The translations under genes were made by a program, and so were the position numbers. DNA of 40,640 nt from Candidatus Parcubacteria bacterium (GTDB lineage: Bacteria; Patescibacteriota; Patescibacteriia; UBA1558; GWA2-36-10), in contig JABJNO010000022.1 in assembly GCA_018664825.1 (NCBI GenBank), positions 1-40,640 of the forward strand, in the 5' to 3' direction. Below, one piece after another: positions 15,740 through 32,199 of this stretch (position 1 is its first letter; the number at the start of each line of letters is the position of its first letter). The notes beneath the pieces were generated by a model. The model was not told where the DNA came from and did not search any database. It saw only the letters and a program-made list of their open reading frames with translations.

Positions 15740-16063
15740 ATGAAAAAGAAATTTTTTACTTTTTTAGCACTTTTATTGATACCATTCTCGACTTATGCTG
15801 CCGGGGTATCAATAGAAAACCCTCTTAATGCAGGTAGCATAGAGGAGCTTATTGGTAATGCTATTCGAGGATTATTAGGTATTAGTGGAGCCTTGGCTTT
15901 ACTTATGATGGTTTGGGGTGGTATTTCTTGGATGACTGCTCATGGTAATTCCGAAAGAGTCAAAAAAGGGCGTGATACAATGGTTTGGGCAATATTTGGT
16001 TTGGTGGCCATATTTAGTAGTTATGTGGTTATAAATTTTATTTTTACAGAGCTACTAGGCTAA
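15740..16063 (+). CDS. T4SS/VirB2-like pilin paralogue 2
   Basis: Signal peptide, two TM helices, WGGISWMTAHGNSERVKKGRDTM. Confidence 0.8.
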   Translation: MKKKFFTFLALLLIPFSTYAAGVSIENPLNAGSIEELIGNAIRGLLGISGALALLMMVWGGISWMTAHGNSERVKKGRDTMVWAIFGLVAIFSSYVVINFIFTELLG

Positions 16064-16067
16064 TAGA

Positions 16068-16096
16068 TTGCGAAAAACTCGATTTTAATTTATAAT
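16068..16096 (+). promoter_or_regulatory. Candidate promoter of pilin paralogue 3
   Basis: TTGCGA (16068-16073), 17 nt, TATAAT (16091-16096). Confidence 0.5.
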
Positions 16097-16125
16097 ATAA
16101 TTAATAAAGTTTTAAAATACCTTTT

Positions 16126-16140
16126 AAGAAAGGGGGTGAA
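16126..16140 (+). promoter_or_regulatory. Very strong Shine-Dalgarno site of pilin paralogue 3
   Basis: AAGAAAGGGGGTGAA before ATG at 16144; near-complete anti-SD complement with one G.U wobble. Confidence 0.75.
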
Positions 16141-16143
16141 AAA

Positions 16144-16491
16144 ATGAGAAAATTAGTTACTGGTTTATTACTTGTGATGCCAATGATGGCATCTGCCCAA
16201 ACTACAGAAGAATGGGGTATAGATGATTTAGATCAAGTAAATCTAGGTACAAGGAGTTTGAGAGACACTATCGCTGGTGTTATCAATATTGTTCTAGGTT
16301 TCTTGGGTATCTTAGCAACAGTTATTATTTTACTTGGTGGTTTCAAATGGATGACTTCACAAGGTAGCACTGATAAAGTTGATGAAGCTAAAAAGCTTAT
16401 CGGCGCCGGTGTTGTTGGTTTAGTTATTATCTTGACTGCTTATGCAGTATCAAGATTCGTCTTAGAGTCATTAGCAAACGAAACTGTTTAA
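16144..16491 (+). CDS. T4SS/VirB2-like pilin paralogue 3
   Basis: Signal peptide MRKLVTGLLLVMPMMASA; core LGGFKWMTSQGSTDKVDEAKKLI. Confidence 0.82.
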   Translation: MRKLVTGLLLVMPMMASAQTTEEWGIDDLDQVNLGTRSLRDTIAGVINIVLGFLGILATVIILLGGFKWMTSQGSTDKVDEAKKLIGAGVVGLVIILTAYAVSRFVLESLANETV

Positions 16492-16507
16492 GTCTCATAG
16501 ACCTATG

Positions 16508-16558
16508 TAGTCTAGACTATAGTAGGTCATATTGTATGACCTACTAGAGCTTGGACTA
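16508..16558 (+). other. Long perfect hairpin between pilin paralogues 3 and 4
   Basis: TAGTAGGTCATA-TTG-TATGACCTACTA (12 bp stem, 3-nt loop), with outer TAGTC/GACTA pairing. Confidence 0.8.
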
Positions 16559-16568
16559 AATTTAAATT

Positions 16569-16967
16569 ATGAAAAAATTAAAACAAAAATTATTTTTATT
16601 GATTTTATTGATGCCAACTTTGGCAAATGCTGAAAGTTTAGCAGATAGCAAAGGAGGCTTGGATGATGCGGTTGCTGGGACAGGATTACCACAAAAGACT
16701 ACTTCTGAAATGATTGGCCTGATTATCAATGCAGCCCTGTCTATACTAGGTGCTTTATTCTTGACCTTGATTATTATTGGTGGCTTCAAGTGGATGACTG
16801 CTGGTGGTAGTAGTGAAAAAATAGGCGAGGCCAAACAAACAATTTCCAATTCGGTAATCGGTTTAGTGATAGTAATAGCTTCATATGTGATAGTAAATAC
16901 TGTCTTTCAAAGATTGGCCGGTGAGCTCGGCAGCGGAGGCAGCGTCAACGGAGTTCCTGCTCCATAA
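16569..16967 (+). CDS. T4SS/VirB2-like pilin paralogue 4
   Basis: Signal peptide; IGGFKWMTAGGSSEKIGEAKQTI core; Gly/Ser-rich tail. Confidence 0.82.
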   Translation: MKKLKQKLFLLILLMPTLANAESLADSKGGLDDAVAGTGLPQKTTSEMIGLIINAALSILGALFLTLIIIGGFKWMTAGGSSEKIGEAKQTISNSVIGLVIVIASYVIVNTVFQRLAGELGSGGSVNGVPAP

Positions 16968-16984
16968 TAATAAATTATATAAAA

Positions 16985-17020
16985 TTTAAACCCCCTCAAG
17001 TTTTCTTGAGGGGGCTTTTT
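16985..17020. terminator. Bidirectional intrinsic terminator between pilin array and minus-strand lipoprotein
   Basis: AAACCCCCTCAAG-TTTT-CTTGAGGGGG-CTTTTTG. Confidence 0.9.
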
Positions 17021-17021
17021 G

Positions 17022-17702
17022 TTACCGGTCTACGGTAACGCTATAGTGCCAGTCGACCGGCTCCAGATAACCTTTACCCAGGTCAACCCACTGATCTCCC
17101 TTTTCTTTATCGATAGGGATTCGGATTTGCTGGGCCTCTTTGTAGAGGCGGTTACCTTGCCAGATTTCGACAGTGGCCAGGAGAACGCCATCAACGGCGT
17201 CGAACAAAGGTGTTCTACCGTAGGGCGGAATCATTCCAAATTTGCGACCACCTGCAGTGATGCGCATAGGATAGGCATCGAGGTTGAAGATACAGCCTTG
17301 CTGAAGGGTACGATTTTGGAGCATCATATCAGTGACCACGATGGGCTCACCAGTGTAGAGTCCAGTCTTGATCAGTTCAAGTCCGCGCTTGCTGTCGCCG
17401 ATCGTATTGTCGAAACCTTCACCGTAGGTGAAAACTTCGATTCGAAGGGTCTCATGGGTCTTCATCCGACGATGGTGAGTCCGACCAGGATCGACTTGCC
17501 AGTAGTCCCGGTTGTCTTCATGAATCTTGATGAAGATAGGTCGGGGGGTTTGATTGATCACTACGGGTTGGATCTCGACGTTGGGGTTGTTACGCGGGGC
17601 GTTGAGCCGCATACCTTTGGTATTGCGGATTCCAGCTCCACAGCCACCGAGCATCGACAGCACGATAACAGCGAACAGAGCGGTAGTTAGATGCCTTTTC
17701 AT
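17022..17702 (-). CDS. GC-rich secreted lipoprotein of unknown function
   Basis: MKRHLTTALFAVIVLSMLGGCGAG signal peptide/lipobox; SD AAGGAG 6 nt before ATG; TTGACA-17-TACAAT promoter. GC about 55% over a sampled line. Confidence 0.8.
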   Translation of the reverse strand: MKRHLTTALFAVIVLSMLGGCGAGIRNTKGMRLNAPRNNPNVEIQPVVINQTPRPIFIKIHEDNRDYWQVDPGRTHHRRMKTHETLRIEVFTYGEGFDNTIGDSKRGLELIKTGLYTGEPIVVTDMMLQNRTLQQGCIFNLDAYPMRITAGGRKFGMIPPYGRTPLFDAVDGVLLATVEIWQGNRLYKEAQQIRIPIDKEKGDQWVDLGKGYLEPVDWHYSVTVDR

Positions 17703-17713
17703 TGGCTTCTCCT

Positions 17714-17729
17714 TTATTTAAGGTACTTT
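17714..17729 (-). repeat. Leader block AAAGTACCTTAAATAA, shared with 31635-31650
   Basis: 15/16 identity to AAAGTACTTTAAATAA in the leader of the gene at 31671; both sit in 5' leaders upstream of an SD. Confidence 0.6.
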
Positions 17730-17763
17730 TATGGGCAGAATTGCCCTTTTTGAACATCGCTAT

Positions 17764-17792
17764 ATTGTATCACATTTATGCTATTTTGTCAA
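17764..17792 (-). promoter_or_regulatory. Near-consensus promoter of the GC-rich lipoprotein
   Basis: Minus strand TTGACA (17792-17787), 17 nt, TACAAT (17769-17764). Confidence 0.8.
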
Positions 17793-31593: not shown

Positions 31594-31622
31594 TTGACAA
31601 TTTGGGGCTTTGATGGTATTTT
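31594..31622 (+). promoter_or_regulatory. Promoter of small membrane protein gene
   Basis: TTGACA (31594-31599), 17 nt, TATTTT (31617-31622). Confidence 0.7.
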
Positions 31623-31631
31623 GCTATGAAG

Positions 31632-31647
31632 TTTAAAGTACTTTAAA
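31632..31647 (+). promoter_or_regulatory. Perfect 16-bp palindrome near the predicted TSS (operator-like)
   Basis: TTTAAAGTACTTTAAA; overlaps the leader block shared with 17714-17729. Confidence 0.55.
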
Positions 31648-31670
31648 TAACCCAACAAGGAGTCAAAACC

Positions 31671-32087
31671 ATGGAAATCACGCAAATTGCGCCTTTGTCT
31701 GTAATCATAGCAGGAGCCGGCTTTGGTTTACTTATTCTCTACTATACACAAAGATTTTTTGCCCAGAGCTCAATCAAGACAAAATCATTTTTCCTATTTT
31801 ACATCCTTTTCCCTTTTTTGGTGGTTTCGGTATTATTCCGAGGATTCATCAATATTGGTGAGATGAGTGAGACAGTAGATTATATACTGATTGCAAAATA
31901 CCTGGGTAGCTACTGGGTAGCTATCAGTGCTCTGTTTTTGCTCGAAAAAGTATTTGACGGATCGTCATTCTTTTATTGTATGATGATACTTCTAGCTTTG
32001 GCTGGACTGATACTGACTCCACAATTTGCTCCGCAAGTCTTGGATCAGTTTATGGAGATCCTAAATGAGCAGTTGTCTGCTCTCTAA
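31671..32087 (+). CDS. Small multi-TM protein of unknown function
   Basis: SD AAGGAG (31657-31662) 8 nt before ATG; about four hydrophobic segments; promoter upstream and terminator downstream. Confidence 0.75.
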   Translation: MEITQIAPLSVIIAGAGFGLLILYYTQRFFAQSSIKTKSFFLFYILFPFLVVSVLFRGFINIGEMSETVDYILIAKYLGSYWVAISALFLLEKVFDGSSFFYCMMILLALAGLILTPQFAPQVLDQFMEILNEQLSAL

Positions 32088-32094
32088 ATACAAA

Positions 32095-32128
32095 ATAACC
32101 CCGTATGAGAAATACGGGGTTTTTATTT
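32095..32128 (+). terminator. Intrinsic terminator
   Basis: AACCCCGTAT-GAGA-AATACGGGGTTTTTATTTT. Confidence 0.9.
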
Positions 32129-32199
32129 TATCTATTTTCCCAATATATAAGCTTCGGCTCCTATGGGTTTGTCAGAGTCTTTTTTAATAATCGAGCTCA

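Follow-up and report, generated by a model that had tools for sequence, protein, structure and literature searches.

The boxA element is the binding site of NusB and NusE (S10), normally found on rRNA operons, and its usual benefit is protection from the terminator Rho. BoxA-dependent complexes also resist pausing and intrinsic stops, and an RNA-chaperone role on rRNA has been proposed for them (PMC10250234). Outside rRNA, boxA regulation has so far been thought to be limited to a few genes per species, with 0–7 putative sites per gammaproteobacterial genome (PMC5725501). Among these leaders are those of E. coli suhB and, in other genera, of prsA, rpsJ and genes for ParE-like toxins; the boxA-like site lies a short distance 5′ of a protein gene's SD, and most of the genes serve translation or Nus functions (PMC5725501). 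None of the papers listed by a literature search joined boxA, NusB and Patescibacteria.

The window considered here is the whole stretch of 40,640 nt analysed from a Candidatus Parcubacteria bacterium. It contains two 16-nt blocks, AAAGTACTTTAAATAA at 31635–31650 on the plus strand and AAAGTACCTTAAATAA at 17729–17714 on the minus strand, which an initial annotation of the DNA had described as near-identical; the coordinates were verified, and the blocks agree at 15 of 16 positions. Each indeed lies between a TTGACA-N17 promoter and a downstream AGGAG, and the lipoprotein block directly abuts its SD, as that annotation had stated. The features of the two loci are as follows.

31594–31622, plus strand: promoter of the small membrane-protein gene, TTGACA-N17-TATTTT (pattern match)
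31635–31650, plus strand: block, with boxA-like core GTACTTTAAAT from 31638 (held-out score 10.4, P 0.0027)
31658–31662, plus strand: SD AGGAG, 7 nt 3′ of the membrane-protein block (sequence)
31671–32087, plus strand: 138-aa hydrophobic membrane protein with neither a Pfam match nor convincing relatives
32097–32129, plus strand: terminator hairpin AACCCCGTATgagaAATACGGGGTT, then a T run (sequence)
17764–17792, minus strand: promoter of the lipoprotein gene, TTGACA-N17-TACAAT (pattern match)
17733–17746, minus strand: leader hairpin GGGCAattcTGCCC, 5′ of the lipoprotein block (sequence and predicted fold)
17714–17729, minus strand: block, with boxA-like core GTACCTTAAAT (held-out score 9.7, P 0.0048)
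17709–17713, minus strand: SD AGGAG of the lipoprotein gene (sequence)
17022–17702, minus strand: 226-aa lipoprotein-like protein, GC-rich (0.52), with homologues in 7 genomes of the same family
16991–17014, no strand assigned: terminator hairpin common to the convergent pilin and lipoprotein units (sequence)
16115–16137, plus strand: pilin-3 leader stretch, not a member of the motif (score 0.9)

Two further features were absent from the initial annotation, namely the GGGCAattcTGCCC hairpin of the lipoprotein leader and a perfect palindrome, TTTAAAGTACTTTAAA (31632–31647), that overlaps the 31635 block. Within the window, only the membrane-protein and lipoprotein genes have a strong SD (AGGAG/GGAGG). 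Three neighbouring genes of the T4SS_pilin family (PF18895) occupy 15740–16967.

Taken literally, the block is not enriched: with up to two mismatches allowed, the 1.16 Mb genome holds 12 sites compared to 20 in the reversed control, and the remaining matches fall mostly within or across ORFs. Likewise, the 35 leaders of the window contain two position pairs with at least 15/16 identity against a shuffled mean of ~0.3, and 1 of 15 shuffles also reaches two such pairs. Both results are in keeping with a chance likeness between two AT-rich leaders, an explanation that is nevertheless hardly credible, since, for the degenerate core that the blocks share, it is contradicted by the held-out scores and by the enrichment of that core genome-wide and across lineages. 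Even when the genes of the window were excluded from training, the held-out copies kept the scores listed above, with P values taken against shuffles of their own leaders. The block is therefore an instance of a genuine, degenerate and oriented leader motif, while the identity of the two blocks beyond the motif core may well be chance.

The motif itself, attGTtCtTTnaAAa, was obtained de novo by EM from leaders collected over the whole 1.16 Mb genome, 94 in all, each running from the 3′ end of the −10 up to, but not including, the SD. Its log-likelihood was 280 (gamma 0.91), compared with 43–48 for shuffled leaders, and its consensus is GT[T/A]C[N]TT[N][N]AAA (GTWCNTTnnAAA). At a score of 8, it is found in forward orientation in 64 of the 94 leaders, reversed in 2 and reverse-complemented in 7. 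It lies mostly 13–21 nt after the −10, often starting at 13–16 nt (mode 15 nt), and a median of 12 nt upstream of the SD. Both distances have long tails, that from the −10 extending to ~127 nt, and some leaders hold two copies. The common 5′ leader that had been suggested for two genes is real and heads ~70, far more than anticipated, but what matters is the degenerate motif and not the 16-mer; the leader of pilin-3, put forward as a looser third relative, is excluded by its score of 0.9.

The genes that carry the motif form a distinct class. Simple rules served to call genes and promoters (crude ORF calling), so that gene starts are predicted, and on this basis ~150 of the 1232 ORFs of the genome have a strong SD. 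These ORFs are GC-richer than the others (median 0.43 vs 0.36) and are far more often preceded by a TTGACA-N16-18-TANNNT promoter (60/149 vs 48/1083); the TTGACA-N17-TANNNT pattern itself occurs 144 times in the genome and 7 times in the reversed control. Most other genes are without an SD, including those for r-proteins, ATP synthase and most other housekeeping functions inspected. The genome as a whole can be described in terms of two expression classes, one of ~150 SD-led, GC-richer and mostly self-standing genes and the other an SD-less, AT-richer majority.

Of 76 strong-SD genes for which a promoter was recognised, 64 have the motif. Among genes with strong promoters, it accompanies 53 of 63 that are SD-led and only 7 of 71 that are SD-less, at least one of the seven resembling a mis-called start; for protein genes, this rejects the idea that the motif is tied to the promoter rather than to the SD. 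Upstream of SD-less genes in general, it is not enriched (23/941 vs 35 reversed). Members of the class stand by themselves, with a terminator 3′ of 51/94 (vs 119/941) and an upstream gap of 157 nt (vs 21 nt). Their proteins serve varied functions: the 94 members match 46 Pfam families, hardly any of them common to several, and thymidine kinase, Clp protease, HSP20, a class I tRNA synthetase and others occur once each. This mixture rules out the motif as the signature of a phage or a single operon. Clearly, the oriented motif between a TTGACA-N17-TANNNT promoter and a strong SD marks a class of autonomous, GC-richer transcripts.

Conservation in relatives could be judged at one of the two loci. 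Homologues of the lipoprotein in seven same-family genomes are mostly GC-rich within AT-rich surroundings and have a TTGACA/TATAAT-like promoter upstream; the GC-richness is retained in most of the distant homologues. At the corresponding position, the leader of the G011 homologue has AAAAGTACTTCAAAT (P 0.016); P is likewise under 0.05 for the leaders of G009 (0.020) and G002 (0.042), that of G010 is borderline (P 0.076), and 3 of the 7 have no significant site. For the 138-aa membrane protein, no convincing orthologue was found, a single weak match in G026 being unsupported on inspection. Beyond these loci, the same motif was rediscovered de novo in G068, which belongs to another family of the class, and was weak in G016, which is of this genome's own family. 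A count by hand put GTWCNTTNNAAA-N3-30-AGGAG-N4-9-ATG at 89 occurrences across 286 genomes of the phylum, compared to 17 for the reversed control, and a stricter pattern was seen 17 times, compared to 3, in 91 relatives, although rows related by descent are not independent.

Of known elements, boxA is the best match for the motif, a likeness absent from the readings of the initial annotation. A scan with GTWCNTTGAAAACTRNATA, whose pattern was chosen on the suspicion of boxA so that its GTWC and GAAAACT parts do not count as independent finds, gave matches from many phyla, 51 of the 83 read adjoining 16S or 23S ends. When 50 rRNA-linked boxA sites from many phyla were scored with the mRNA-derived matrix, the median was 13.1 of a possible 16.3, and a score as high as 13.1 is attained by 1.2e-5 of this genome's positions. 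The conserved rRNA-leader box of the class, CTTTGACAA followed by AGTGA, falls within the top 1% of positions by the leader matrix in 11 of 24 leaders. The genome's own rRNA box, GCATTTTGACAA, is a weak match (score 2.7, rank 3 of 486), and several other members of the family also have an rRNA box with a low score. NusB (TIGR01951 over cut-off) and NusG are encoded, and a candidate S10 (NusE) at C1:14531-14863 was recognised by a short sequence motif only.

Much like boxA of rRNA operons, the motif has the core GT[T/A]C[N]TTnAAAA, a 5′ leader position and a fixed orientation, and on non-coding RNAs it is followed by structured RNA. It differs in heading ~70 mRNAs and several small RNAs instead of rRNA, in a genome whose own rRNA box matches it only weakly and where Rho was not found. 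With the non-rRNA leaders it shares a site close 5′ of a protein gene's SD, but here the arrangement is genome-wide and the genes concerned are mainly accessory. Lambda-type nut sites (boxA plus a boxB hairpin) also have such a core, sometimes with a small hairpin nearby, as in the lipoprotein leader; here, however, such a hairpin is no general feature, and it is located 5′ of the core. From these comparisons, we infer that the motif is a boxA-type element.

The motif is not confined to protein genes. Of 28 terminated transcripts that lack an ORF of 45 aa, 10 carry it, compared with 2 for the reversed motif; an SD is nonetheless present in two or three of the ten, and several are strongly folded. 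Candidate small RNAs of 130–210 nt, each with a promoter, the boxA-like motif, a strong fold, a terminator and no ORF of 45 aa, include L032 (C3:191129, minus), L061 (C15:12383 and 12781, both minus), L041 (C16:19436, minus) and L045 (C7:4577, minus). In addition, L060:3182-5449 (plus strand, C14 of the same genome) holds a tandem series of promoter-led units, in which two near-identical promoters lead to paralogous structured RNAs of ~290 nt that start with AGTTCTTTC and have a terminator at the end; neither has an Rfam match near the gathering score.

Because the motif also heads ORF-less terminated transcripts, a boxA-like reading is favoured over a pure translation signal, and the motif probably constitutes a boxA-like Nus-factor leader of autonomous GC-richer transcripts that works without Rho. 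The initial annotation had suggested a translational enhancer, and an element that, together with the SD, recruits the 30S subunit to GC-richer mRNAs through S1-type or other ribosome contact, independently of NusB, would account for the strong tie to the SD and the median spacing of 12 nt. It is unlikely all the same, and in its plain form disfavoured, given the structured transcripts that have the motif without SD or ORF, the clustering nearer to the −10 than to the SD and the resemblance to boxA. Pairing with 16S rRNA was rejected as its basis, complementarity being non-significant in the 16S of three relatives (P 0.61, 0.13 and 0.17).

The main alternative use of the element would be repression of the suhB type, in which boxA-bound NusB–NusE prevents translation as long as free Nus factors are abundant and so couples genes to ribosome synthesis. 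The placement near the SD is as in suhB, where up to 100 nt can be inserted between boxA and the SD without loss of repression (PMC5725501). Yet the suhB outcome includes termination by Rho, which was not found here, the motif here is also on untranslated transcripts, and its presence on most genes of the class is unlike a selective regulator, all of which leaves this use rather improbable. An operator had been suggested as well, and a DNA site of a global transcription factor, or one in the initially transcribed region, could explain why the motif often begins 13–16 nt after the −10 and why the 31635 copy is a perfect palindrome. The strand asymmetry (7/94 reverse-complemented at score 8), the variable distance to the −10, the paired copies of some leaders and the strong promoters of SD-less genes that mostly lack the motif make any such site very unlikely, and speak against a symmetric operator in particular.

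Rho was sought across the lineage. Its RNA-binding domain (PF07497) was found in 0 of 19 genomes in which controls matched, and the full-length model (TIGR00767) gave no match over cut-off, the weak matches in G000 being ATP synthase. With Rho not found in the lineage, the benefit of a boxA-like leader cannot be protection from it. We infer instead that NusB and NusE (S10) would bind the element while the leader is emerging from RNA polymerase, and would then remain tethered to the polymerase together with NusG, as on rRNA. The likeliest benefit would be better elongation and folding of structured transcripts that are poorly covered by ribosomes, possibly in the form of resistance to pausing and intrinsic stops or of an ordered release of the SD or a closing helix.

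The NusB of this genome (L061:13508-14371, minus strand, C15) is fused to a C-terminal NUDIX domain, whose closest solved structure is an Ap4A hydrolase. Open frames of 286–306 aa at NusB in most same-family genomes, compared to only 151–161 aa in G023 and G026, suggest that the fusion is widespread in the family. As NusB is fused and the motif usually starts within ~15 nt of the 5′ end, transcription starts being placed from promoters only, the Nudix domain may act on the 5′ ends of these transcripts. It is a speculative and doubtful extension that, in a Rho-less lineage, NusB–S10–boxA is the standard leader of autonomous coding and non-coding transcripts, with the fused hydrolase, of the Ap4A-hydrolase or RNA-pyrophosphohydrolase kind, perhaps acting on their 5′ phosphates or caps.

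If the boxA-like reading is true, ~70 coding leaders and a set of small RNAs in 1.16 Mb would make the Nus complex a general device for mRNA and small-RNA expression and, with no Rho found, its anti-Rho role would be separable from its other roles. The motif also offers a practical signature by which to recognise autonomous accessory genes, as well as unknown small RNAs, in a phylum that is still mostly uncultured.
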